Assembly (NCBI RefSeq): GCF_025989145.1
Contig: NZ_JAPDNQ010000001.1
Location: forward strand, 744,001-808,000
From: Microbacterium sp. SSM24
GTDB taxonomy: Bacteria; Actinomycetota; Actinomycetes; Actinomycetales; Microbacteriaceae
DNA: 64,000 nt
Direction of reading: 5' to 3'
The first letter of the stretch is position 1, and each line of letters opens with the position of its first letter. Below are positions 6,562-45,822 of the stretch, piece by piece. The notes under the pieces were generated by a model. The model did not search any database and was not told the DNA's origin. It saw nothing but the letters and a program-made list of their open reading frames with translations. Position numbers and translations under genes: made by a program.

Positions 6562-7995
6562 ATGACCACGACACTCATCACGGGCGGCACCGTCGTCTCC
6601 GCGACCGGGCGGGGCGAGGCCGACGTCCTCATCGACGGCGAGACAATCGCGGCCGTGCTCGCGCCCGGCTCGCACCTCCTCGGGACGGATGTCGCGGCAT
6701 CCGTCGACACCGTCATCGACGCCACCGGCAAGTACGTGATCCCGGGCGGCATCGACGCCCACACCCACATGGAGCTGCCGTTCGGCGGCACCGCCGCATC
6801 CGACACGTTCGAGACCGGAACGCGCGCGGCGGCGTGGGGCGGGACCACGAGCATCATCGACTTCGCCGTGCAGAAGTACGGCGAGCGGGTGCAGGACGGA
6901 CTCGCCGCGTGGCACGAGAAGGCACGCGGCAACTGCGCGATCGACTACGGCTTCCACCAGATCATCGGCGGCGTCGACGACGAATCGCTGCTCGCCATGC
7001 GCGGCCTCCTCGACGAGGGCGTCTCGAGCTTCAAGCTCTTCATGGCCTATCCGGGGGTGTTCTACTCCGACGACGCCCAGGTGCTCAAGGCCATGCAGGT
7101 GTCGGCGGAGACGGGCCTGCTCACGATGATGCACGCCGAGAACGGCCCCGCGATCGACGTGCTCGCCGCGCAGCTCGCCGAGGCGGGCAAGAAGGCGCCG
7201 TACTACCACGGCATCGCGCGCGCCTGGCAGATGGAGGAGGAGGCGACGCACCGCGCGATCATGCTCGCCAACCTCACCGGCGCTCCCCTGTACACCGTCC
7301 ACGTGAGCGCGAAGCAGGCCGTCGACCAGATCGCGTGGGCCCGGGATCAAGGCTGGAACGTCTTCGGAGAGACGTGCCCGCAGTACCTGTACCTGTCGCT
7401 CGAGGAGCAGCTCGGCGCGTTCAGCGAGGAATGGGGCCAGTTCGAGGGCGCCAAGTGGGTGTGCTCCACGCCGTTGCGCAGCCGCGGCGAGGGTCACCAG
7501 CACCACATGTGGCAGGCCCTGCGCACGAACGACATCCAGATGGTCTCGACCGACCACTGCCCCTTCTGCATGAAGGGCCAGAAGGAGCTGGGGAAGGACG
7601 ACTTCCGTGCGATCCCCAACGGCATCGGATCCGTCGAGCATCGCATGGACCTCATGTACCAGGGCGTCGTGACCGGCAAGATCACGCTCGAGCGCTGGGT
7701 CGAGCTCACCTCGACCACGCCGGCGCGCATGTTCGGGCTGTACGGCCGCAAGGGCGTGATCCAGCCGGGCGCCGACGGCGACGTCGTCGTGTACGACCCG
7801 AACGGGCACACGTCGATCTCGGCGGCATCCCACCACATGAACATGGACCACTCCGCGTGGGAGGGGTTCGAGATCGACGGGCACGTCGACACGGTCGTCT
7901 CGCGCGGCAAGGTGATCGTCGACGGCGGCGCGTACCTCGGCGCCAAGGGCGACGGCCGGTTCCTCAAGCGCGGCCTGTCGCAGTACCTCATCTGA
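6562..7995 (+). CDS. hydA: Dihydropyrimidinase / D-hydantoinase
   Basis: A 477-residue cyclic amidohydrolase. The metal ligands are His67 and His69 in GGIDAHTHME, the carbamylated lysine Lys158 in SSFKLFMAYPG, His191 in MMHAENG, His247 in YTVHVSAKQA and Asp331 in MVSTDHCPF. It opens dihydrouracil or dihydrothymine to the N-carbamoyl-beta-amino acid and commonly also acts on 5-substituted hydantoins. Length and motif order match bacterial dihydropyrimidinases. The 40-bp gap after the nitrilase gene and the 36-bp gap before the LLM gene point to one transcript. The natural substrate (pyrimidine or hydantoin) cannot be fixed from sequence. Confidence 0.93.
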   Translation: MTTTLITGGTVVSATGRGEADVLIDGETIAAVLAPGSHLLGTDVAASVDTVIDATGKYVIPGGIDAHTHMELPFGGTAASDTFETGTRAAAWGGTTSIIDFAVQKYGERVQDGLAAWHEKARGNCAIDYGFHQIIGGVDDESLLAMRGLLDEGVSSFKLFMAYPGVFYSDDAQVLKAMQVSAETGLLTMMHAENGPAIDVLAAQLAEAGKKAPYYHGIARAWQMEEEATHRAIMLANLTGAPLYTVHVSAKQAVDQIAWARDQGWNVFGETCPQYLYLSLEEQLGAFSEEWGQFEGAKWVCSTPLRSRGEGHQHHMWQALRTNDIQMVSTDHCPFCMKGQKELGKDDFRAIPNGIGSVEHRMDLMYQGVVTGKITLERWVELTSTTPARMFGLYGRKGVIQPGADGDVVVYDPNGHTSISAASHHMNMDHSAWEGFEIDGHVDTVVSRGKVIVDGGAYLGAKGDGRFLKRGLSQYLI

Positions 7996-8031
7996 CCCAC
8001 CGGCGATCGAGTAGCGGAGCGTATCGAGATC

Positions 8032-9048
8032 ATGGACTTCGGCGTCGTCCTCCAGACCAACCCACCGGCCGCGCGCGCGATCCAGCTCGCGCAGCTGGCC
8101 GAGGCGCACGGCTTCAGCCACGTGTGGACCTTCGACTCGCACCTCCTGTGGGAGGAGCCCTACGTCATCCACTCGGCGATCCTCAATGCCACGAAGCGGG
8201 TGACCGTCGGCCCGTTCGTGACGAATCCCGCCACGCGGGACTGGACGGTCACGGCATCCGTCTTCGCGACGCTCAACGAGATGTACGGCAACCGCACCGT
8301 CTGCGGCATCGGCCGGGGCGACTCGGCGGTGCGCGTCACCAACGGCAAGCCGGTGACGATGGCCGAGCTGCGCGAGTCGATCCACGTGATCCGCGAGCTC
8401 GCCAACTCGCGAGCCGTCGAGTACAAGGGCGCGACGCTGCAGTTCCCGTGGAGCCGGGGGTCCGAGCTCGAGGTGTGGGTCGCCGCGTACGGGCCGATGG
8501 CGCTCAAGCTCACGGGCGAGGTCGGCGACGGCTTCATCCTGCAGCTGGCGGACGTCGACATCGCCGCGTGGATGATCAAGACGGTGAAGGATGCCGCGGC
8601 CGCCGCCGGCCGCGACCCCGAGTCGCTCTCGTTCTGCGTCGCGGCGCCGATGTACATCGGCGAGGACCGGCAGCACATGCTCGACCAGTGCCGCTGGTTC
8701 GGCGGCATGGTGGGCAACCACGTCGCCGACATCGTCGCGAAGTACGGCGAGCACGGTGCGGTCCCGGACGCGCTGACGGCGTACATCGAGGGCCGCAAGG
8801 GCTACGACTACAACACGCACGGCAAGGCCGACAACGATCACGTCGACTTCGTGCCCGACGAGATCGTCGAGCGGTTCTGCATCCTCGGCACGGCCGAGGA
8901 GCACATCGCGAAGCTCGAGCAGCTGCGCGCGCTCGGTGTCACCCAGTTCGCGGGGTACCTCCAGCACGACAGCAAGGAGGAGACCCTCCGGGTCTACGGC
9001 GAGACGGTCATCCCCGCACTCTCCGCGCATGTGACGGCCAAGACATGA
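8032..9048 (+). CDS. LLM-class (luciferase-like) flavin/F420 oxidoreductase, TIGR03842 type
   Basis: A 338-residue TIM-barrel protein of the luciferase-like monooxygenase fold. It starts MDFGVVLQTNPPA and has the family traits WTFDSHLLWEEPY, CGIGRGDSAVR and VWVAAYGPMALKLTGEVGDG. The best family match I know is the TIGR03842 (CPS_4043) group, whose substrate is not established. In this operon it occupies the place where a dihydropyrimidine dehydrogenase would be expected, between dihydropyrimidinase and the importer; no classic dehydrogenase gene lies in the window. Its stop overlaps the start of the permease gene (ATGA, 9045-9048), so it is translationally coupled to transport. Confidence 0.85.
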   Translation: MDFGVVLQTNPPAARAIQLAQLAEAHGFSHVWTFDSHLLWEEPYVIHSAILNATKRVTVGPFVTNPATRDWTVTASVFATLNEMYGNRTVCGIGRGDSAVRVTNGKPVTMAELRESIHVIRELANSRAVEYKGATLQFPWSRGSELEVWVAAYGPMALKLTGEVGDGFILQLADVDIAAWMIKTVKDAAAAAGRDPESLSFCVAAPMYIGEDRQHMLDQCRWFGGMVGNHVADIVAKYGEHGAVPDALTAYIEGRKGYDYNTHGKADNDHVDFVPDEIVERFCILGTAEEHIAKLEQLRALGVTQFAGYLQHDSKEETLRVYGETVIPALSAHVTAKT

Positions 9049-9974
9049 GGCCGATCGGGTGGACGTCCCGGCGACAGGGCGAGCTGCGCGGCTGGATCGT
9101 CGTCGGCTGGGGCGCGCTCGGCGTGCTCGCCGTGCTCGTGCTGTGGGAGCTGTACAAGTTCGTCGGTCCCGCGGAGGGCGTCGTGATCGGCGCCGTCGAG
9201 GGCGAGGCCGGTTCGGGCGTCATGATCCTCCCCCGCACCCACGACCGGGCGATGCCGCACGTGTGGGACATGGTCGCGCGGCTCTTCCTGCCGACGAGCG
9301 GCGGCGAGACCCCTCCGCTGTGGGTGTCGGTGGCGACCGCCGCGCTCGTGACCCTCGGCATCGCGGCCGTCGGCTGGATCATCGGGGTCACCGTCGGCGC
9401 CGTCCTCGGACTCGTGATGCAGCGCTGGCGCCTCGTCGAGTGGGGACTGCTGCCCTGGATCGTCGTCAGCCAGATCATCCCGCTGATCGCCTTCGCGCCG
9501 GTCGTCAATGCGATCGGCAACCAGATCGACCGCGGCGGGGGAACCTGGCCGCAGTGGCTGTCGGTGGCGGTGATCGCCTCCTACCTCGCGTTCTTCCCGG
9601 TCTCGATCGGCGTGCTCCGCGGGCTCGCCTCGCCCGACCGCATCCACCTCGACCTGATGCAGAGCTACGCCGCCGGGTACTGGCCGACCCTGTTGCGCCT
9701 GCGACTGCCGGCAGCGGTCCCGCACCTGCTCCCGGCCCTGCGGCTGGCCGCCGCCAACGCCGTGCTCGGCACCGTCGTCGCAGAGGTGTCCATCGGCATG
9801 CGCGGCGGCATCGGCCGCATGCTCATCCAGCTCGCGGGCCAGGCCTCGAGCGACCCCGCCGCGCCGTGGGGCCCGACCTTCGGCGCGATCGCGCTCGGCC
9901 TCATCGCCGCGGCATCCGTCGCCGTCATCGGCCTCGGCCTCGCCAACTACCGCAGAGGAGAAGCCCCGGCATGA
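9045..9974 (+). CDS. ABC transporter permease, nitrate/sulfonate/pyrimidine type
   Basis: A 309-residue inner-membrane protein with about six or seven hydrophobic segments (first near residues 20-40) and the coupling-loop region DLMQSYAAGYWPTLLRLRLP, which is the EAA motif equivalent of the TauC/SsuC/ThiX permease group. It overlaps both neighbours by 4 bp (9045 and 9971). With the second permease at 10789 it probably makes a heterodimeric channel. The extended loop between the first two membrane segments (about residues 45-95) is longer than in the partner permease. Confidence 0.9.
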   Translation: MRPIGWTSRRQGELRGWIVVGWGALGVLAVLVLWELYKFVGPAEGVVIGAVEGEAGSGVMILPRTHDRAMPHVWDMVARLFLPTSGGETPPLWVSVATAALVTLGIAAVGWIIGVTVGAVLGLVMQRWRLVEWGLLPWIVVSQIIPLIAFAPVVNAIGNQIDRGGGTWPQWLSVAVIASYLAFFPVSIGVLRGLASPDRIHLDLMQSYAAGYWPTLLRLRLPAAVPHLLPALRLAAANAVLGTVVAEVSIGMRGGIGRMLIQLAGQASSDPAAPWGPTFGAIALGLIAAASVAVIGLGLANYRRGEAPA

Positions 9975-10792
9975 CCCTTCCCCCCACTTCTGACGAGAAC
10001 ACCGCCGGTTCCGCCGTGCGGGCGGCCGGCGTCGGCAAGGTCTTCCCGACCAAGACCGGCGAGGTCGTCGCCCTCACCGAGGTCGACCTCGAGGTCGCCG
10101 AGGGCGAGTTCGTCTCACTCATCGGCCCATCGGGATGCGGCAAGTCCACGCTGCTGCGCCTCATCGCCGACCTCGACGGGGCCACGACGGGCACCCTGGA
10201 GATCTTCGGCAAGCCGGCGTCGCGTGCGCGCGCCGACCAGGACTACGGCATCGCGTTCCAGCAGGCGGGCCTGTTGCCGTGGCGCACCGTCGCGGCCAAC
10301 ATCGGCCTGCCGCTCGAGCTGCACGGCACCGGCAAGACGCAGCGCGCCGCTCGCGTCGCCGAGCTCGCCGAGCTCGTCGGCCTCACGGAGTTCATCGACC
10401 GCTACCCCGACCAGCTCTCCGGCGGCATGCAGCAGCGCGTCGCGATCGCCCGCGCCCTCGCGGCCCGCCCGCGACTGCTCCTCATGGACGAGCCGTTCGG
10501 CGCACTCGACGAGATGACGCGGGAGTACCTGCAGTCCGAGCTGACCCGCATCGCGGGCGAGACGGGGGCCGCCGTCGTCTTCGTGACCCACTCGATCCCC
10601 GAGGCGGTCTTCCTGTCGGACCGCGTCGTGGTGATGAGCCCGCGACCCGGCCGCATCACAGACGTCATCGTCACGGGCCTCGGCGCCGTGCGCGACGAGG
10701 ACCTGCGCGAGTCGCCGGAGTACTTCGACCGTGTCACCGCCGTGCGCGAGGCCCTCCACGGCACCCGCATCGAGAGGGCGAACGAACGATGA
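9971..10792 (+). CDS. ABC transporter ATP-binding protein, nitrate/sulfonate/pyrimidine type
   Basis: A 273-residue ATPase with Walker A GPSGCGKST (residues 52-60), Q-loop in AFQQAGLLPWRTV, signature [15 protein letters not shown] and Walker B LLLMDEPFGALDE, followed by VTHSIPEAVFLSDRV. The FQ..LLPW and HS..EA patterns are typical of the SsuB/TauB/ThiZ ATPases. It is translationally coupled to permeases on both sides by ATGA overlaps, giving the gene order permease-ATPase-permease-binding protein. Confidence 0.93.
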   Translation: MTLPPTSDENTAGSAVRAAGVGKVFPTKTGEVVALTEVDLEVAEGEFVSLIGPSGCGKSTLLRLIADLDGATTGTLEIFGKPASRARADQDYGIAFQQAGLLPWRTVAANIGLPLELHGTGKTQRAARVAELAELVGLTEFIDRYPDQLSGGMQQRVAIARALAARPRLLLMDEPFGALDEMTREYLQSELTRIAGETGAAVVFVTHSIPEAVFLSDRVVVMSPRPGRITDVIVTGLGAVRDEDLRESPEYFDRVTAVREALHGTRIERANER

Positions 10793-11622
10793 CCGACGCC
10801 CCCGCCTCGACGATGCTCCCGGCGCCTCCCGGGAAGAGCCAGCGCGCGCGTCCGTCGGACGAGAAGCCGCTCCCCGGCTGGCTGCGCATCGTCGCGCCGA
10901 TCATCGTCGGATTCCTCATCCTGGCCGTCTGGACGATCTGGGTCGCATCGGGCACCGCCCCGCGCATGCTCCCCAGCCCGGTCGCCATCGCCGCCGAGTT
11001 CGTGCTGCGCTGGCCGATCATCGCCGAGGACATGGCCGTCACCGCGACGAACGCGCTCGTCGGCCTCGTCGCGGGCTCGATCCTCGCGATCCTCTTCGCG
11101 GCGCTCGCGGCGGCCGCACGCCCGATCGACGGCATGCTCGCGCCGCTCATCTCGGCGCTCGCCGTCATCCCGATCGTCGCGATCACGCCGATCCTCAACA
11201 CGATGTTCGGCGCGTCGAGCCAGTTCGGACGGCAGGCGGTCGCGACGATCGCCGCGTTCATCCCGGTGTTCGTCAACGTGCTGCGCGGCCTGCGTCAGAC
11301 CCGGCCCGTGCATCGGGACCTGATGCGGGCATCCGGCGCCTCGAGCTCGCAGACGTTCCGCATCCTCACTCTCCCGACCGCCCTCCCGTACCTCATGACG
11401 GGCCTGCGCATCGCGAGCTCGCTCGCCGTGATCGCGGCGCTCGTGGCCGAGTACTTCGGCGGCCCCGCCGACGGCATCGGCACCGCGATCGCGACCTACG
11501 CCAAGTCGGGCCGCGCCGCGCTCGCGTGGGCGTACGTCGTCGGAGGCATCCTCATCGGCCTCGTGTTCTTCCTCGTCACCTCGCTCCTGGAGCGGCTGGC
11601 GACACGGCGCTCGCGCCCCTGA
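10789..11622 (+). CDS. ABC transporter permease, nitrate/sulfonate/pyrimidine type
   Basis: A 277-residue permease with six predicted membrane spans (first near residues 35-55) and the coupling loop DLMRASGASSSQTFRILTLP. It belongs to the BPD_transp_1 family. It overlaps the ATPase stop by 4 bp (ATGA, 10789-10792) and is followed after 56 bp by the binding-protein gene. It is a paralogue of the permease at 9045 but lacks that protein's long first loop. Confidence 0.92.
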   Translation: MTDAPASTMLPAPPGKSQRARPSDEKPLPGWLRIVAPIIVGFLILAVWTIWVASGTAPRMLPSPVAIAAEFVLRWPIIAEDMAVTATNALVGLVAGSILAILFAALAAAARPIDGMLAPLISALAVIPIVAITPILNTMFGASSQFGRQAVATIAAFIPVFVNVLRGLRQTRPVHRDLMRASGASSSQTFRILTLPTALPYLMTGLRIASSLAVIAALVAEYFGGPADGIGTAIATYAKSGRAALAWAYVVGGILIGLVFFLVTSLLERLATRRSRP

Positions 11623-11678
11623 CCCCTCGACCCACCGGCTCCACCCCGAGAGAACAAGCACCACACGAAAGGATCAGC

Positions 11679-12857
11679 ATGAGGCACAGCACCAGACGCG
11701 GCATCGCCGCGGCATCCGTCTTCACGATCGCAGCGCTCGCGCTCGCCGGCTGCGCGGGGTCGTCGGACCCCGACTCCAGCGACGGCGGAGGCGGCGAGGA
11801 CTTCGAACCGCTGACCTCGGTGAAGCTGCAGCTGCAGTGGCTGCCGCAGGCGCAGTTCGCGGGCTACTACGTCGCCCAGGAACAGGGCTACTTCGAGGAG
11901 GAGGGCTTCGACGACGTCGAGATCGTCCCGTCCGGCGGCGACATCGTGCCGCAGGACGCCCTCGTCGCGGGAGATGTGGACTTCGCGATCGCGTGGGTCC
12001 CGAAGGTCCTCGGCACCCTCGAGGCCACCGGCGTCGAGCTCACCGACATCGCGCAGGTCTTCCAGGAGTCGGGCACGATGCAGGTGGCCTGGAAGGGTGA
12101 CGGCATCGAGTCGGTCGCCGACTTCGAAGGCAAGCGCATCGGCTCGTGGGGCTTCGGCAACGAGTGGGAGATCTTCGCGGCGATGGCCGCGGACGACCTC
12201 GACGCGAGCACGGTGTCGATCACGACGCAGGACTTCTCGATGAACGCGCTCCTCGACCGCGACGTCGACGCCGCCCAGGCGATGACGTACAACGAGTGGG
12301 CGCAGATCCTCGAGGTCGTCAACCCCGACACCGGCGAGCTGTACCAGCCCGACGACTTCGACGTCGTCTCGTACCAGGACACCGAGGGGGCCATGCTGCA
12401 GGACGCCATCTGGGCCGACACGCAGCGCCTCGCCGATGACCCGGCCTACGCCGACGCCGCGGTGCGGTTCCTCAAGGCCGTGACGAAGGGCTGGATCTTC
12501 GCGCGCGACAATCCCGAGGAGGCGGCCGAGATCGTCTACGACATCGCCTCGAACGCCGAGGCGGCCTTCCCGGTCGGTCCCGTGCACCAGCTGTGGCAGA
12601 TGAACGAGGTCAACAAGCTGATCTGGACCGGCGCCGACTTCGGTCTCGTCGACCAGTCGGCATGGGACAAGACCGTCGCGGGCGCGCTCTCGGCCGTCAA
12701 CCAGGACGGTCTCGAGCTCATCACGACCGAGCCCGCGGCATCCGCGTTCTCGAACGAGTACATCGAGCAGGCGCTCGCCGAACTCGAGGAGGAGGGAGTC
12801 GAGGTCGGCGGCGAGTACACGCCGATCGACGTCGTCCTGACCGAGGGCGGCCAGTAA
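11679..12857 (+). CDS. ABC substrate-binding lipoprotein, NMT1/THI5-like
   Basis: A 392-residue solute-binding protein. The signal peptide MRHSTRRGIA... ends at a lipobox LALAGC with Cys25, so it is anchored to the outer face of the membrane. The mature part begins VKLQLQWLPQAQFAGYYVA, the strongly conserved opening of NMT1/THI5-like proteins, which bind pyrimidine-type ligands including thiamine precursors. Together with the catabolic genes this suggests a cyclic ureide such as uracil, dihydrouracil or a hydantoin. The ATG at 11679 follows GAAAGGA. A strong terminator-like hairpin follows at 12869. Confidence 0.92.
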   Translation: MRHSTRRGIAAASVFTIAALALAGCAGSSDPDSSDGGGGEDFEPLTSVKLQLQWLPQAQFAGYYVAQEQGYFEEEGFDDVEIVPSGGDIVPQDALVAGDVDFAIAWVPKVLGTLEATGVELTDIAQVFQESGTMQVAWKGDGIESVADFEGKRIGSWGFGNEWEIFAAMAADDLDASTVSITTQDFSMNALLDRDVDAAQAMTYNEWAQILEVVNPDTGELYQPDDFDVVSYQDTEGAMLQDAIWADTQRLADDPAYADAAVRFLKAVTKGWIFARDNPEEAAEIVYDIASNAEAAFPVGPVHQLWQMNEVNKLIWTGADFGLVDQSAWDKTVAGALSAVNQDGLELITTEPAASAFSNEYIEQALAELEEEGVEVGGEYTPIDVVLTEGGQ

Positions 12858-23200: not shown

Positions 23201-25114
23201 TTACGCCCCGGCGAGCCACTCCCGGTACGCGTCGAACGAGTACGGACGGCCCAGGAATGCCTCGACGAGGTCGCCCGCGTCACGCGAGCCACCGCGTTCG
23301 AGCACCTCGGTGCGATAGCGGAGCGCGGCATCCGGGTCCATGAGTCCGCCCGCGAATCCGGTGAGCAGATCCCGCGCGATCACGAGGCTCCACTGGTACG
23401 TGTAGTAGCAGGCGCCGTACCCGGTCAGATGGCCGAAGCCCGCGTAGGGGTGCAGGCCCGGAATGGGCTGGATCGGCGTCGTCGTCGAATACAGTCGCTC
23501 GGTCTCGGCCTGCAGATCGGCGGGGCGGTCGACGTGCAGGTGATACGACACCGACGCGTGGCCGAGCTGACGGCGCACCTCGAGGGCGCGGCCGAACGCA
23601 TCGGCCGTGCGCATCCTCGCCACGAGGTCGGCGGGGATGGGCTCGCCGTCCGCATTCGCGGTGAACGACGCGAGCACGCCGGCATCCCACGCCCATTCCT
23701 CGAGCAGCTGGCTCGGCGCCTCGACGAAGTCCCACTCGGTCTCGAAGCCGGTGAAGCGCGCATAGCGCTGGCGTCCGCCGAGGATCTCGTGCACGAGGTG
23801 CCCGAACTCGTGGAAGAACGTCACGACCTCGTCATGCTCGAGCAGGCCGCGGGAGAAGTTGCACAGCAGGGCGGCCTCGGGAAGGATCCGGCCCGGGATC
23901 CCCGGGGCCACCGGGAAGCACGCGGCATGGCTGTACTTGCCGTCGCGCGGGTGCAGGTCGAGGTGGATGCGGCCGATCCGCTCCCCCGCGCGCACGACGT
24001 CGTACGAGCGCACGTCCTCGTGCCACGCGGAGGCGTCCACGGGAACGTACTCGACATCGAGCAGCCGGCCGGTCACGTCGAGCACGCCGCCGAGCACGCG
24101 CTCGAAGGGGAAGTACGAGCGCACGAGCAGCGCGTCCACGTCGTACTGCTCGCTCTTGACCGCGCCGAGGAGGTGCCAGAAGTCCGCGACGGTGACGGCT
24201 TCGGCATCCGGGATGTCGCGGCGCAGCCGCTCCAGCAGGACGGGATACTCGGCCTCGGCCTCCGCGCGCGAAGCCTCGTCGAGTCGCGCGAGGAATGCCG
24301 GGATCTCGGCGCCGCCGCCGATCATGCGCGTCTCGGTCTCGAACTCGGCCCAGTCCGAGTAGCCGAGGAGCCCGGCACGCTCGGCACGCACCTCGAGAAG
24401 CTCGGCGAGGACGTCTTCGTTCTCGGGCCACGCGAGGTCGTTGTAGGCGCTGATCAGCGCCGTGCGCGTGGCACGGTCGGTCGCGTACTCGCGCACCGGC
24501 ATGAGGTCGGTGTACTCGGTCGTCAGGGTGACGAAGCCGTTCTCGTCGGCGGGATGGGAGTCGAGGAAGTCCTGGGGCAGCCCGGCGAGCCCGGCCGCGG
24601 GGATGTGGATCTCGCGGCGCCCCTCCCGGATGTTGCGGGAGAAGGTCAGCGACAGGTCGGTGTCGCGCTTGGTGAGCGTGCGCACGCGCTCCCGTCCGTC
24701 GTCGTCGAGGCCGACGCCGCCGCGGCGGAAGTCACGCCGCACGTGCTCGAGCAGCCGAGCCTGATCGTCGTCGAGTCCCTCGGCCGCGGCATCCGCGAAC
24801 GCCGTCCACAGTCCCCGATCGAGCAGGCGCGCGGCCGACAGGGACTCGATCGCCTGCACCTGCGTCTCGGCCAGCTCGCGCACGGCGGCGTCGGGGTGGG
24901 CCTCGCTGACCACGTACGCCTCGCTCAGCGCCTCGCGGAGGGCGATGTCGGCGTCGTTCCACAGCTCGAGGCGATCGACGACGGAGAGGTCGGCCTCGGC
25001 GCGCAGTCGCGCGTCTGCGGCCTCCACGAGCGCGATGCGGGCGGCGGCCCGGTCACGGGCGAAGGCGGTCCAGCCGTCGAGGTCGGACGGGAAGCTGATC
25101 GGAGCGATGGTCAC
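23201..25114 (-). CDS. M3 family metallopeptidase (thimet oligopeptidase-like)
   Basis: A 637-residue cytosolic peptidase. The zinc motif HEFGHLVHE lies near residue 434 and the third ligand is probably in the ETEWDFVEAPSQLLEEW segment. The aromatic active-site part HPYAGFGHLTGYGACYYTYQWS is also typical of the M3 family (oligopeptidase A, Dcp). These enzymes degrade short peptides. The start is GTG at 25114. The length is a little short of the 680 residues usual for the family, mostly in the N-terminal helical domain. No neighbour suggests a special role. Confidence 0.92.
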   Translation of the reverse strand: MTIAPISFPSDLDGWTAFARDRAAARIALVEAADARLRAEADLSVVDRLELWNDADIALREALSEAYVVSEAHPDAAVRELAETQVQAIESLSAARLLDRGLWTAFADAAAEGLDDDQARLLEHVRRDFRRGGVGLDDDGRERVRTLTKRDTDLSLTFSRNIREGRREIHIPAAGLAGLPQDFLDSHPADENGFVTLTTEYTDLMPVREYATDRATRTALISAYNDLAWPENEDVLAELLEVRAERAGLLGYSDWAEFETETRMIGGGAEIPAFLARLDEASRAEAEAEYPVLLERLRRDIPDAEAVTVADFWHLLGAVKSEQYDVDALLVRSYFPFERVLGGVLDVTGRLLDVEYVPVDASAWHEDVRSYDVVRAGERIGRIHLDLHPRDGKYSHAACFPVAPGIPGRILPEAALLCNFSRGLLEHDEVVTFFHEFGHLVHEILGGRQRYARFTGFETEWDFVEAPSQLLEEWAWDAGVLASFTANADGEPIPADLVARMRTADAFGRALEVRRQLGHASVSYHLHVDRPADLQAETERLYSTTTPIQPIPGLHPYAGFGHLTGYGACYYTYQWSLVIARDLLTGFAGGLMDPDAALRYRTEVLERGGSRDAGDLVEAFLGRPYSFDAYREWLAGA

Positions 25115-25168
25115 GGTCCGAGCCTACGTCGGCACCCTCGGGGTGCGCGGCACTCTCCCGCGCGCGCG

Positions 25169-25210
25169 GCGCTCGGCCGGGTGCGCTCGGCCGGGTGCGC
25201 TCGGCCGGGT
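25169..25210. repeat. Tandem repeat, 3 x 14 bp
   Basis: Three perfect copies of GCGCTCGGCCGGGT (25169, 25183, 25197) immediately before the family B quasi-palindrome. They end exactly where the 389-bp duplicated segment begins (25211), which is noteworthy for how that segment arose. Confidence 0.9.
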
Positions 25211-25211
25211 G

Positions 25212-25317
25212 CGCGGCGCATAACTCCTGCAGAGTCCCCGGCCGCTCCACGCGCCCGCGCGGGATTCCGCGGTCGACACCGGCATCTCCCGGGGAAGTGC
25301 AGGAGTTATGCGCCGCG
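25212..25317. repeat. Quasi-palindrome, family B copy 1
   Basis: The left arm CGCGGCGCATAACTCCTGCA (25212-25231) and its exact complement at 25298-25317 form a perfect 20-bp stem with a 66-base loop. Other copies are at 27429 and 45732, with a lone arm at 27359. Confidence 0.93.
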
Positions 25318-25346
25318 GGTGGGGATGACCGCCGCGCCCGGCCGGC

Positions 25347-25599
25347 TCAGCGCAGCGCGCCGACGCTCGCCAGCGCCAGCCGCACGAGCGTGCCGCGGCC
25401 GCCCTCCATCTCGGCGGAGAGGGCATCGGATGCCGCTTCCTGCGGCGTCATCCACGTGACCTCGAGCGCGTCCTGGCGCGGCTCGCACGTGCCGGTGACA
25501 GGCACGACGAAGGCGAGCGACACGGCGTGCTGACGGTCGTCGTGGAACGCGCTCAGGCCGGGCATCGGGAAGTACTCCGCCACCGTGAACGGCGTCGGC
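25347..25599 (-). pseudogene. Truncated NUDIX (DUF4916) gene, 3' fragment
   Basis: The last 84 codons of the NUDIX gene at 27564-28232, identical in protein sequence from VAEYFPMPGL to the end. At 25599/25600 the similarity stops abruptly. In the same frame an upstream stop (TGA within 25626-25632) precedes any start codon, so the fragment has no start of its own. It is the duplicate left behind by whatever event brought in the 25.6-27.4 kb genes. Confidence 0.88.
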
Positions 25600-25698
25600 G
25601 CCCACGCTGAAGAAGAACTCTCCGAGCAGCGTCATTTTGTGGGTTCTCGAGCGTCATCTCAATGAGGCGGTGTCCGCCTGATCCCAAGGAGGAACACG

Positions 25699-26298
25699 AT
25701 GCAGAAACCGAAGAGCGCCGCGATCTCGGTGCTTCTCATCGCGGGGCTACTTGCCGCTGGCAGCGATACCGCGTCCGCAATGGGAGGGCCGGCTATGGCT
25801 TCGGTGACCGACTCCGAAGAAGATTCGCAGGTGGTGGAAGAATCGATCACCATCGGGCCAGTCGCCCCGGGCGAAACAACTGCGCCGAACGGGAAAGTCA
25901 CCCCGAACGGAAAAGCCGCCACAGCGGCGATCTGCGTGGCCGTGAACCGCGTCGACTATCCGCACATCTCGAGTACCAGTTCTTACCTTGCGGTTCAGGC
26001 ACACGGCAACTGGGACAAGGGGACCTGCAAGGCGACGCTCGCAGACGTGACGACGCAGATCGACCGGAAGAACCCGATCGGCCTCTTCCAGGCCGTAGGA
26101 ACGCAGGGAAAGGGACGACTCGCACCGAATCCGAAAGGACTCACCAGCGGTGGCGCAGGACGTGTGACGGCTCACTACCGATGCAACGGCAAGGCAGCTG
26201 CCCCGTTCCGGGCGTGGACGAAGATCGACATGGTTGGTATTGCTGACACTCAGAATGCGACTACGACGCCCGCTACCAGCCCCATCAAGTGCGGCTAG
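25699..26298 (+). CDS. Predicted secreted protein of unknown function
   Basis: A 199-residue protein I do not recognise. The N-terminus MQKPKSAAISVLLIAGLL is a signal peptide with a probable cleavage after the first ASA, near residue 27. The mature chain begins with a Ser/Glu-rich stretch, then GETTAPNGKVTPNGK with two NGK repeats. Three cysteines (in AAICVAV, KGTCKAT and HYRCNGK) and a terminal IKCG suggest two disulfide bonds. The ATG at 25699 is preceded by an excellent AAGGAGG. Base composition is visibly AT-richer than the surroundings. It is the first of three cargo genes between the duplicated NUDIX ends and may encode an exported factor. Confidence 0.72.
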   Translation: MQKPKSAAISVLLIAGLLAAGSDTASAMGGPAMASVTDSEEDSQVVEESITIGPVAPGETTAPNGKVTPNGKAATAAICVAVNRVDYPHISSTSSYLAVQAHGNWDKGTCKATLADVTTQIDRKNPIGLFQAVGTQGKGRLAPNPKGLTSGGAGRVTAHYRCNGKAAAPFRAWTKIDMVGIADTQNATTTPATSPIKCG

Positions 26299-26308
26299 CT
26301 CCGCGCCG

Positions 26309-26809
26309 ATGATGAGCGCTTGGCGCGGTCTGCGGCAGACGTCCCTGGCCACCAAGTGGTTGCTGGCCATGTCCATCCCGCTCTTGGTGAGTGGATTCTT
26401 GGGAGGGTGTTCGTCGCAGGCTGCGCCAACCGAGGGTCCGGCTGCTGTCGCCACACGGTTTGTGGAGGCCTACGACCAGTGGGCGCAAACTGGCTTCTTG
26501 AGGCCGATCCCTCACTCGCTACGTTCCCTCGCGACTACCGACATGATCGATGTCCTCGAGGCTGACCAGAGGTGGCATGTAAGCGGCGGCGTGGTGCAGC
26601 ACGGGGCGGTGCGCATCGTCGAGAAGGCCACAATCGACCTCGCTGAAGACCGAGCTGTGGTGCGCATCGTACTTGACGCCACAAACGTCTCAGTGACAGC
26701 TGAGGGCAAACCTACCTTCGTGGACTACTCGCGCCCGATCGTGACGCGGTTTTCCCTCGAGAAGGGAGGCGGGACGTGGCGCGTCGCCTCCTCTGACAGC
26801 GATGACTGA
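26309..26809 (+). CDS. Predicted lipoprotein of unknown function
   Basis: About 166 residues from the ATG at 26309 (a second ATG follows directly). The hydrophobic segment ending VSGFLGGCSSQ fits a lipobox with the Cys near residue 35. The remainder (AAVATRFVEAYDQWAQTGFL, then alternating strands to the end) resembles small NTF2-like or SnoaL-like folds that follow lipoboxes in many actinobacterial proteins, but I cannot name a family. It follows the secreted protein by 10 bp, so both are likely co-transcribed. An upstream in-frame start at 26234 would overlap that gene and has no signal-peptide sense. Confidence 0.65.
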   Translation: MMSAWRGLRQTSLATKWLLAMSIPLLVSGFLGGCSSQAAPTEGPAAVATRFVEAYDQWAQTGFLRPIPHSLRSLATTDMIDVLEADQRWHVSGGVVQHGAVRIVEKATIDLAEDRAVVRIVLDATNVSVTAEGKPTFVDYSRPIVTRFSLEKGGGTWRVASSDSDD

Positions 26810-26840
26810 TCAGCGCGAGCATCCGAGTGTGGTGCGTCGC

Positions 26841-27170
26841 TTACGTCTGTGGCCCACGCTTCCGCCGAGCCTCGACAAACTCGGGAAAGTCAGAGGGGCC
26901 GATGCCGTCGTCCGAGAAGAATGCGCGCACGAACAATCCGGCCTCCTTCTCGATGAAGGCTCGCGAGAAGTCGTTCTGCGCCGATGAGGTGGAACCGACC
27001 GTGAACCCGTACGACGAAGCCCCGGGACCATTGACCCACGTAAAGTCGTAGACGATGCCCCCGTCGGGTTCAGTTCGCCTTTCGACCTCGAAGCGCTCTC
27101 CTTGCACTTCGATCAGCATGCCGTTGTTGCCCTCGACCGTCAGACTCAGCGGCCCTCGATCTTGCTCCAT
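26841..27170 (-). CDS. Small protein of unknown function in the duplicated unit
   Basis: A 109-residue protein that I cannot assign. It contains alternating charged and glycine-rich strands (VEGNNGMLIEVQGERFEVE, YDFTWVNGPGASSYGFTVG) and ends with a charged helix (FPEFVEARRKR). No signal peptide. The ATG at 27170 follows AAGAGGCG. It converges on the lipoprotein gene with a 31-bp gap. Its codons are less GC3-biased than the neighbouring core genes. It could be an immunity-type or regulatory partner of the exported proteins, but that is inference. Confidence 0.6.
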   Translation of the reverse strand: MEQDRGPLSLTVEGNNGMLIEVQGERFEVERRTEPDGGIVYDFTWVNGPGASSYGFTVGSTSSAQNDFSRAFIEKEAGLFVRAFFSDDGIGPSDFPEFVEARRKRGPQT

Positions 27171-27427
27171 GGCGCGCCTCTTTTCGGTTGAGCTCCGTCT
27201 GCACGACTTCCGAGCGTAATCGGATCAGCGGAATGCGTGCACTCGGCACTCCCACCCAGAGCCAACCAGAGGAGTGCGAGACGTGATCAGAGTCGATCCA
27301 GATCGTGGGGGTTGCGGGCGCCGGTGACTCCAGCCCGGGGCGCACGCGCGCACCAGGGGCCGCATAACTCCTGCACAATGTCGCGGCCGCCCGACTCAAC
27401 GGGCCGGGATGCGGCGAGATTCCGGGC
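27171..27427. other. Right end of the cargo region
   Basis: 257 bases with no supported gene. It holds a lone left arm of family B (GCCGCATAACTCCTGCA, 27359-27375) about 70 bp before the complete family B element of the right duplicate. The transition back to very GC-rich sequence starts near 27300. Confidence 0.5.
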
Positions 27428-27816
27428 GCGCGGCGCATAACTCCTGCAGAGTCCCCGGCCGCTCCACGCGCCCGCGCGGGATTCCGCGGTCGACACCGGC
27501 ATCTCCCGGGGAAGTGCAGGAGTTATGCGCCGCGGGTGGGGATGACCGCCGCGCCCGGCCGGCTCAGCGCAGCGCGCCGACGCTCGCCAGCGCCAGCCGC
27601 ACGAGCGTGCCGCGGCCGCCCTCCATCTCGGCGGAGAGGGCATCGGATGCCGCTTCCTGCGGCGTCATCCACGTGACCTCGAGCGCGTCCTGGCGCGGCT
27701 CGCACGTGCCGGTGACAGGCACGACGAAGGCGAGCGACACGGCGTGCTGACGGTCGTCGTGGAACGCGCTCAGGCCGGGCATCGGGAAGTACTCGGCCAC
27801 CGTGAACGGCGTCGGC
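27428..27816. repeat. 389-bp direct repeat, right copy
   Basis: Matches 25211-25599 except one base. In this copy the NUDIX gene continues uninterrupted to its start at 28232, so this is the intact end and the left copy is the extra one. Confidence 0.93.
27429..27534. repeat. Quasi-palindrome, family B copy 2
   Basis: Identical to copy 1 as part of the 389-bp duplication: perfect 20-bp arms with a 66-base loop. It lies directly after the stop of the intact NUDIX gene and could end its transcript. Confidence 0.92.
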
Positions 27817-28232
27817 TCGGGCGGGAGGAGGGGGAACGCCATCGGTCCGAGGTCGTTCTCGACGTGCCGGAACAGGGCGTCGCGGACGGTCTCGCCGTAG
27901 CGCACCCGCCCCGATACGAGCGTGCGCGTGATCTCGCCGAGCGGCGTCGCGCGCAGCAGGATGCCGACCTCGGTCACCGCCCCGACGCCGTCCGTGCGCA
28001 CCGGCAGCGCCTCGACGTACAGCATGGGCAGGCGGCGACGCGCCTCCGCGAGCTCGACGTCGGTGAGCCAGCCCGGGTTGGCGGAGCTTCCCGGGGCAGG
28101 AGATCCGAACGAGCCGTCGCCGACGGAATGGCCGCCCCGACCGAACGAGGCACCGACGCCGCCGAGCGGATCGCGGGGCGTGCCCGAGTCGTCGCGCTCG
28201 TTGGGGTCGGGGTCAGGGGTGCGGACCGGCAT
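27564..28232 (-). CDS. NUDIX hydrolase family protein (DUF4916)
   Basis: A 222-residue protein of a NUDIX-related family common in Actinobacteria (DUF4916). The N-terminal 50 residues are Gly/Ser/Asp-rich and probably disordered. The domain starts at GWLTDVELAEARRRLPMLYVEALPV. The NUDIX-box region GRVRYGETVRDALFRHVENDLG keeps the Gly-x5-Glu spacing but lacks the usual REUxEExGU glutamates (HVEND instead), so catalytic activity on nucleoside diphosphates is doubtful. The ATG at 28232 follows a perfect AGGAGG; a longer upstream frame runs through the family A palindrome and is not the start. Its 3' third is duplicated at 25.2-25.6 kb. Confidence 0.78.
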   Translation of the reverse strand: MPVRTPDPDPNERDDSGTPRDPLGGVGASFGRGGHSVGDGSFGSPAPGSSANPGWLTDVELAEARRRLPMLYVEALPVRTDGVGAVTEVGILLRATPLGEITRTLVSGRVRYGETVRDALFRHVENDLGPMAFPLLPPEPTPFTVAEYFPMPGLSAFHDDRQHAVSLAFVVPVTGTCEPRQDALEVTWMTPQEAASDALSAEMEGGRGTLVRLALASVGALR

Positions 28233-28313
28233 GCCTCCTGTATACCCCAGTCCCCGCTCCGCCACCCGCGCCTCCCTCCCGCGCCTTCCTCCCGCGCCTC
28301 CCTCCCGCGCCTT

Positions 28314-28377
28314 CCGTTTGTGCGGGCGAATGTGCGCATCACGCCGGTGCTGAGCGTGCATTCGCCCGCACAAACGG
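28314..28377. repeat. 64-bp quasi-palindrome, family A copy 2
   Basis: CCGTTTGTGCGGGCGAATG (28314-28332) with a perfectly complementary right arm (28359-28377) and a 26-base loop. A polypyrimidine tract rich in CCTCCC units precedes it. It lies between the NUDIX start and the 3' end of the dipeptide ABC ATPase gene. Confidence 0.92.
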
Positions 28378-28400
28378 ACCAGGCGGAGTGGGGGGCGGCG

Positions 28401-29990
28401 TCAGAGCGCGGCGGGCACCGAAGCGAGCAGGCGCCGGGTGTACGGATGCTGCGGCACGGCCAGGAGCTGCTGGGTCTGCCCGCGTTCCACGATCTCGCCC
28501 CTCGACATCACCACGGTCTGCTCGCACACGCGGCGCACGACGGCGAGGTCGTGGCTGATGAACAGGAGCGTGAGTCCGCTCTCGCGCCGCACGGTCGAGA
28601 CGACGTCGAGCACCTGCGCCTGGATCGAGACGTCCAGCGCGCTCGTGGCTTCGTCCATCACCAGCATCCGGGGCTGCACGGCGAGCGCGATCGCGATCGC
28701 GACGCGCTGGCGCTGACCGCCCGACAGGGTCTTGGGTCTCGCGGACGCGTGCTTCTCCCCGAGCCCCACGGATTCGAGCAGCCGCAGCACGCGCTCCCGG
28801 GCCTCGGCGGTGGTCAGCTTCGTGTGCAGCCGCAGCGCATCCTCGATGGCCCGTCCCGCCGTGATGCGGGGGTCGAGCGACAGGTACGGGTCCTGGAACA
28901 CCATCTGCACGCTGCGCGCGTGTGCCAGGCGCTCGGCGCGCGTGCGGGGCACGGCGGTGCGCTCACGGCCGGCGATGGTGATGTCACCGGCATCCGCCTG
29001 CTCCAGTCCGACGACCATGCGTGCGAGCGTCGACTTGCCGGAGCCCGATTCGCCGACGACGGCGAGCGCTCCCCCCTCGGGGATGTCGAGGGAGACGTTC
29101 CGCACCGCCAGAACCGGCGCCTTCCCGCGCCGCTGGTACGACTTGGACAGGTCACGCGCGTCGAGCAGGGGAGCGGCGCCCGTGTCCTCCGGCGGGCGTG
29201 GCGGATCGGCGAGCGGGCCGTCGAGTGTCGGCGTCGTCGCGACGAGGCGTCGTGCGTAGTCCGTCGCGGGCGCGGTGAGCACGCGGCGCGCCTCGCCCGC
29301 CTCCTCGATCGCCCCCGATCGCATGACCACGATGCGGTCGCACAGCGAGCCGGCGAGCGTGAGGTCGTGCGTGATGAAGAGGAGGCCCATGCCGCGGGCG
29401 TCGCGCAGCTCCTTGAGCAGGGCGATGATCTCGGCCTGCGTGGTCACATCGAGGGCGGTCGTCGGCTCGTCGCACACCAGCAGCCGGGGGTCGCTCGTGA
29501 GAGCTCCCGCGATCATGACGCGCTGCAGCATCCCCCCGGAGAACTCGTGCGGATACTGCCGCAGGTGCTCCTCGGGGTCGGGGAGACGCACGGCCGCGAG
29601 GAGCTCGAGAGCCCGCTCCTGGGCACGCGCCCTGCTCCACCCCTCGTTCAGCCGCAGCGACTCGGTCATGTGGTCGCCGATCGTCCGCATGGGGTTCACG
29701 CCGGCGCGCGGATCCTGGAAGATCATCGCCGCACCGTGCCGGCGGATCTCGAGCAGCTCGCGCTTCGAGGCGCCGAGCACCTCTTCACCGTCGAGGGTCA
29801 CCGATCCGCTGGTCGCGGCCCGGTCGGGCAGCAGCCCCAGCACGGACCGCGCCGTCAGCGACTTCCCCGAGCCGGACTCGCCGACGAGCCCGATCGTCTC
29901 CCCCGCCGCCACGGACAGCGAGATGCCGTGCAGCAGGTCGGTCCCGTCGGGGAGCCGGATGCCGAGCCCGTCGATCTGAAGAAGCGTCAT
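28401..29990 (-). CDS. Fused oligopeptide-type ABC ATPase (DppD-DppF fusion)
   Basis: A 529-residue protein with two complete ATP-binding cassettes. The first has Walker A GESGSGKS (residues 37-44), signature FSGGMLQRV and Walker B LLVCDEPTTALD. The second (from about 275) has GESGSGKST, TLSGGQRQRVAIA and MLVMDEATSALD, and ends in HPYTRRLLASVP, the oligopeptide-transporter C-terminal signature. It therefore provides both ATPase subunits of a dipeptide/oligopeptide-type importer in a single chain. The ATG at 29990 overlaps the permease stop (ATGA). It is the last gene of the 35.1-28.4 kb operon. Confidence 0.93.
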   Translation of the reverse strand: MTLLQIDGLGIRLPDGTDLLHGISLSVAAGETIGLVGESGSGKSLTARSVLGLLPDRAATSGSVTLDGEEVLGASKRELLEIRRHGAAMIFQDPRAGVNPMRTIGDHMTESLRLNEGWSRARAQERALELLAAVRLPDPEEHLRQYPHEFSGGMLQRVMIAGALTSDPRLLVCDEPTTALDVTTQAEIIALLKELRDARGMGLLFITHDLTLAGSLCDRIVVMRSGAIEEAGEARRVLTAPATDYARRLVATTPTLDGPLADPPRPPEDTGAAPLLDARDLSKSYQRRGKAPVLAVRNVSLDIPEGGALAVVGESGSGKSTLARMVVGLEQADAGDITIAGRERTAVPRTRAERLAHARSVQMVFQDPYLSLDPRITAGRAIEDALRLHTKLTTAEARERVLRLLESVGLGEKHASARPKTLSGGQRQRVAIAIALAVQPRMLVMDEATSALDVSIQAQVLDVVSTVRRESGLTLLFISHDLAVVRRVCEQTVVMSRGEIVERGQTQQLLAVPQHPYTRRLLASVPAAL

Positions 29991-36014: not shown

Positions 36015-36078
36015 CCGTTTGTGCGGGCAAATGCGCGCGTCGCGCCGGGATCAGGCGTGCATTCGCCCGCACAAACGG
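36015..36078. repeat. 64-bp quasi-palindrome, family A copy 3
   Basis: CCGTTTGTGCGGGCAAATG with right arm complementary at 18 of 19 positions, 26-base loop, preceded by a CCCCTCCCC polypyrimidine tract. It lies between the same-strand TetR and esterase genes. Confidence 0.92.
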
Positions 36079-45731: not shown

Positions 45732-45822
45732 CGGCGCATAACTCCTGCAGAAAGCCAGGGCCGACCCGTCCCCACCGGCGTGTCGAGGATCGAACTCGCG
45801 AAGGTGCAGGAGTTATGCGCCG
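45732..45822. repeat. Quasi-palindrome, family B copy 4
   Basis: CGGCGCATAACTCCTGCA (45732-45749) and its exact complement (45805-45822), loop 55 bases. It follows the Nei-type gene stop and precedes the potA promoter region. Confidence 0.9.

Follow-up and report, generated by a model that had tools for sequence, protein, structure and literature searches.

A recent foreign three-gene insertion beside a duplicated NUDIX gene end in Microbacterium sp. SSM24

The genome of Microbacterium sp. SSM24 (3.40 Mb in 3 contigs) carries a foreign, lineage-specific and recent insertion of three genes, g1, g2 and g3, accompanied by a duplication of the end of the neighbouring NUDIX gene. The insertion was studied within a window, the whole 64-kb stretch at C1:744001–808000, and the coordinates of its features are given in Table 1. 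It was probably left by a single chance event of gene transfer and not by a new mobile element; the module itself probably came from another actinobacterium, where it would have been part of an element that was mobile or integrated.

Table 1. Features at and around the insertion, in window coordinates
Feature	Position	Strand	Basis
M3-family peptidase gene, left resident neighbour	23201–25114	-	PF01432, E 2.7e-83
3 x 14-bp tandem repeat, left edge of extra copy	25169–25210		repeat search
Extra copy (apparent addition): palindromic element and last 83 NUDIX codons	25211–25599		1 mismatch to 27428–27816
Palindromic element, left copy; two 20-bp inverted arms, 25212–25231 and 25298–25317	25212–25317		repeat search
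NUDIX / DUF4916 gene-end remnant	25347–25583	-	PF16262 positions 95–169, E 6.5e-32
g1, secreted protein, predicted beta-rich fold	25699–26298	+	homologue search, structure model
g2, lipoprotein; lipobox read by eye	26312–26809	+	3 homologues
g3, small soluble protein	26841–27170	-	homologue search
Left part of palindromic element, apparent original site	27357–27426		88.6% over 70 bp to L008 2384–2315
Apparent resident copy: palindromic element and NUDIX gene end	27428–27816		389-bp self-match
Intact NUDIX / DUF4916 gene	27564–28232	-	PF16262 E 2.6e-77, PF00293 E 2.2e-6 (Pfam scan of longer open frame 27564–28373)
Palindromic elements in window	25212–25317, 27429–27534, 45736–45818		spaced inverted arms

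The duplicated flank and the resident site

Self-comparison of the window revealed a direct repeat of 389 bp, with 388 of 389 positions equal and an offset of 2,217 bp. The lone mismatch, C at 25578 and G at 27795, reads as synonymous. Since the longest exact run within this repeat is 367 bp, and the runner-up among the exact repeats of the 64 kb is only 35 bp long, chance is ruled out as the source of the duplication. The DNA enclosed by the two copies (25600–27421) has a G+C content of 62.8%, compared with 71.2% for the window and 74.2% for the repeat. The extra copy on the left starts 1 base outside a 20-bp arm of a palindromic element. Its other boundary falls within the NUDIX gene, where no feature is visible, and the gene remnant that it contains corresponds to the final 83 of 222 codons. 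A tandem array of a 14-bp unit, present at 25169, 25183 and 25197, stops where the extra copy begins; the shared 18-mers extend to 25214. The DNA before the left copy (25138–25210) differs from that before the right copy, to the left of which stands the left part of another palindromic element (27357–27426). An earlier, sequence-only reading had described the near-identical duplication at this offset, a left duplicate starting directly after three 14-bp repeats, and a secreted protein, a lipoprotein and a small cytosolic protein lying in AT-richer DNA, all of which were borne out.

Assembly in 3 contigs, together with the ability of a 389-bp repeat to mislead assembly, raises the question of an artefact in which a foreign contig was joined through the repeat. 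Such a contig would, however, have to terminate in NUDIX-end sequence on one side and in palindrome sequence on the opposite side, and the genome was rated at completeness 100 and contamination 0.02, so that we regard this explanation as barely credible.

The NUDIX protein was matched in 47 of 58 genomes, own genome counted, and a close second NUDIX gene end occurs in this genome alone, being absent from the other 57 genomes searched; weak second matches at 31–38% identity in genomes G004, G015 and G218 were provisionally taken for other proteins. The sequence-only reading had named the same arrangement in all relatives, with diverged repeats, as grounds for abandoning its proposal, and had suggested a comparison for empty sites, which was run here on other species. 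Loci were compared from 30 of the 47 NUDIX-positive genomes, including our own, and hence from 29 relatives. The M3 peptidase and NUDIX genes are separated by 32–264 bp in 10 of these and by 859 and 911 bp in two, while in the remaining 17 loci the 1.5 kb retrieved contained no M3 gene. The 10 short gaps are too small to hold the cargo, which is therefore absent there; these empty sites all come from other species, the nearest showing 87–91% DNA identity beside the site.

The nearest species searched, as judged by the NUDIX protein (97% identical), is represented by genome G012, in which the M3-NUDIX gap of 264 bp carries one palindromic element (locus L008). The left 70 bp of this element resemble 27357–27426 (88.6%), and the adjoining genes show 87% and 91% DNA identity. 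Because this stretch is resident beside the NUDIX gene in G012, the right copy looks, on the sequence comparison, like the original setting and the left copy like an addition. The base at the mismatch position may weakly favour the same assignment: among the 29 relatives it is that of the right copy in 20, that of the left copy in 8 and another base in 1, and it agrees with the right copy in 6 of the 7 near relatives displayed. By eye, a separate tandem repeat of about 45 bp was seen in the G012 gap between the palindrome and the NUDIX stop, and the M3-NUDIX gap is therefore unstable in both species.

Palindromic elements at the breakpoint

The palindromic element at the breakpoint belongs to a dispersed family. 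With up to 1 mismatch allowed, the genome contains 61 occurrences of its arm, GCGCATAACTCCTGCA, and 0 of the reversed control. Spaced inverted pairs, defined by exact 14-bp arms with 50–80 bp between them, so that diverged arms are missed, number 24 in this genome, 15 in G012 and 2 in G153; G003 and G174 have a single pair apiece, and the remaining 290 of 295 genomes of the genus have none. The lengths of the 24 distinct copies are 94 bp (13), 93 bp (3), 83 bp (3) and 82 bp (5), and the element at the G012 locus measures 116 bp, made up of an 88-bp interior and the arms. Whereas the arms, GGCGCATAACTCCTGCA, are near-invariant, the interiors are mostly unrelated, and the two classes of spacing, 82–83 and 93–94 bp, are about one helical turn apart. 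The 94-bp class has a weakly conserved centre, the consensus of which was pooled from both strands, a procedure that in itself makes a consensus palindromic. These elements look like putative paired binding sites under selection, and Rfam gave no match in 24500–29000.

A second family of inverted repeats was observed at 28313–28378, with arms TCCGTTTGTGCGGGCGAATGTGCGC that are 92% complementary and 16 bp apart; further copies occur in the window as repeats of 25–28 bp near 36055 and 52180.

The cargo genes and their settings elsewhere

Searches of four family libraries with g1, g2 and g3 gave nothing above cut-off, and g2 gave no Pfam match above the curated cut-off. Homologues at E <= 0.001 amounted to 20 proteins for g1 and 8 for g3, the query itself counted in each case, and three homologues were found for g2. 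The structural model of g1 (mean pLDDT 77.7, with blocks of 85–97 from residue 81 onward) predicts a beta-rich fold, and g1 weakly resembles the MspA rim domain. For each of the three proteins the longest contig recorded with the closest homologue has 8,453 bases, and this is presumably one and the same contig. Plasmids yielded no match to g1, g2 or g3, and g1, the sole cargo protein compared with phages and viral contigs, had no match in them; nor did comparison of the cargo DNA with plasmids reveal a donor for the cargo edges. An insertion sequence or transposon was considered and rejected, because Pfam showed no transposase domain in the three cargo proteins and the cargo edges (25600–25760 and 27101–27360) have no 9-mer in common, either direct or inverted.

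The distribution of g1 was examined with a profile built from 20 g1 proteins, which detected it in 1 of the 366 genus genomes and in 3 of 398 in a sample of the family (own genome counted), as well as in 1 of 7 genomes of the genus of G609 and 1 of 6 of Mycetocola, a genus that we take to belong to the Microbacteriaceae. An earlier search of 198 genus genomes with the single g1 sequence had produced three more weak matches (E 6e-5 to 1e-3, 28–35% identity), two of them interrupted by stops and one partial, which were not recovered by the profile. Together with the empty sites, the presence of g1 in a single genome of the genus supports the earlier claim of a recent, lineage-specific acquisition. 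Relatives of g3 were found in 18 other genomes among the 366. A g3 relative in G003 (L056 6849–7250) lies in one frame with a start which, by eye, resembles a transposase helix-turn-helix segment, and this suggests a possible insertion-sequence edge there.

The sequence-only reading had also proposed a search for the three genes beside other gene ends, and two settings were found. In G609 (L060 5763–14113, on a 4.2-Mb contig) the order is the same as here, g1, g2 and then g3 reversed. On one side of the trio lies a gene for a DNA polymerase III alpha-type protein, with 'error-prone DNA polymerase' as its best NCBIfam model (602 bits, under the cut-off of 939), and on the other a gene with a TrwC relaxase domain (98.5 bits, cut-off 25; NCBIfam MobF 93.1 against a cut-off of 100). 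This setting suggests an integrated conjugative element. In Mycetocola zhadangensis (L006) the order is g3 reversed, g1, g2, and a 26-bp exact direct repeat of the 3' end of tRNA-Tyr, at 6959–6984 and 11935–11960, bounds a 5-kb island in which the trio is accompanied by a transposase of the Mutator type and a protein with an rve integrase core. The island has 58.9% G+C, compared with 63–64% outside, and no tyrosine integrase was noticed among the open frames listed for 6959–11960. Both settings have a mobile look, which was counted in favour of a foreign origin of the insert.

Genomic islands targeted to tRNA genes are a known class, which the Mycetocola setting resembles, whereas the window here has no short att-like core or tyrosine integrase. 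The enclosure of the Mycetocola trio in about 5 kb between tRNA ends could be read in favour of a site-specific integrative element which, in our genome, inserted at the NUDIX 3' end, supplied a replacement gene end and relied on an integrase acting in trans or later lost. Against this, the near-identical repeat continues 136 bp past the NUDIX gene, a single NUDIX site is known, and a genome-wide search for tyrosine recombinases placed none of the 3 that the genome has in the window. Moreover, a Pfam scan of the three cargo proteins revealed neither recombinase nor transposase domains, and none for replication or mobility. The earlier remark that no recombinase is visible was therefore upheld to this extent, and a site-specific element is very unlikely. 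A broader proposal, based on the 26-bp tRNA-Tyr end in Mycetocola, the 389-bp NUDIX end here and the permuted gene order, is that the trio constitutes a recombinase-free mobile cassette for which the 3' ends of host genes serve as repeated landing sites, a gene-end duplicate being its footprint, with a circular form suggested by the permutation; we give this little credence.

Possible routes of insertion

We favour, with a confidence slightly better than even, a non-homologous (illegitimate) insertion of the foreign three-gene module in the course of which the adjacent 389 bp of host DNA were copied too. The process would have begun next to the palindromic element, where the DNA broke or a fork stalled. 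A broken end near the M3 gene would have slipped, reiterating the 14-bp unit, and the slipped end may then have used the short match CCGGG(T/C)GCGCGGCGC, found at the element's edge, to prime on the sister copy. The element and the NUDIX end would next have been copied, followed by a switch to foreign DNA, of which about 1.75 kb was copied, and the new end would have been rejoined to the chromosome to the left of 27357. This would leave a foreign insert with a dead gene-end fragment on one side and the untouched NUDIX gene on the other. A single copying event from one start would be expected to include 27357–27426 in the left copy, which lacks it, so that this route also requires a skip or a later deletion. 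The genome carries a Ku gene, so that end-joining is possible in this cell, and the tandem repeat and palindrome at the breakpoint were counted in favour of the copying route. A copying accident fits the apparently original state of the right copy, the boundaries of the extra copy and the reiterated 14-bp unit.

Direct repeats of target DNA bounding an insert, here 389 bp with one mismatch, are also the usual footprint of a single crossover of the Campbell type, in which a circle from a close relative, carrying the cargo and the palindrome with the NUDIX end, would have integrated and rebuilt the gene on the right. A single difference in 389 bp fits a donor of the same species, and circular permutation turns the order g1-g2-g3, found here and in G609, into the g3-g1-g2 of Mycetocola. 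However, that permuted order belongs to another genome and could also arise by ordinary rearrangement, and the three cargo proteins have no replication or mobility domain in Pfam. Furthermore, 27357–27426 would have to be circle DNA, and yet it is resident beside the NUDIX gene in the nearest species (89%, in what is another species), so that the circle model would require this stretch to have been lost from the recipient beforehand. We consider the circle a possible but doubtful source, and rebuilding of the gene on the right, which the sequence-only reading ascribed to a circle or an element carrying a gene-end copy, is accordingly less well supported than the other claims of that reading.

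Homology-facilitated illegitimate recombination, described for transformable bacteria and for conjugation in Escherichia coli (PMC3240628, PMC2884548), offers another route, whereby transforming or conjugated donor DNA with a NUDIX end already joined to the cargo paired at that end and was joined illegitimately at the opposite one. It appears improbable here, as the prior junction of NUDIX end and cargo in the donor pushes the question back.

The favoured copying accident can be set beside several described systems. PMC2884548 (Genome Biol 2010) reports illegitimate insertions or 'variable segments' between conserved genes, over half of which are unexplained by known mobile elements, while 10–18% are flanked by repeats and 66–94% of those repeats are shorter than 30 bp. 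The present insert is likewise a segment between conserved stretches but differs in its 389-bp repeat and gene-end copy. It resembles the transformation-made duplications of Streptococcus pneumoniae, as described in PMC3784515, in that DNA uptake leads to a direct duplication of host DNA. For effector displacement with left-over immunity genes in Vibrio cholerae, PMC5361080 proposes a process similar to homology-facilitated illegitimate recombination; there, as here, an incoming module adjoins left-over pieces of host DNA, although in that system the resident gene is displaced whereas here it is intact and a fragment has been added. The kind of event is already known, the exact scar is unusual, and a non-homologous route is likelier than the circle route.

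The locus presents a fresh acquisition scar in which the insert is distinguishable from both the extra and the original copy of the flank, and these two from each other, so that the order of events is readable. It also shows a dispersed palindromic element at a breakpoint, and it brings to attention a three-gene module of unknown function that is present in three genera of one family.
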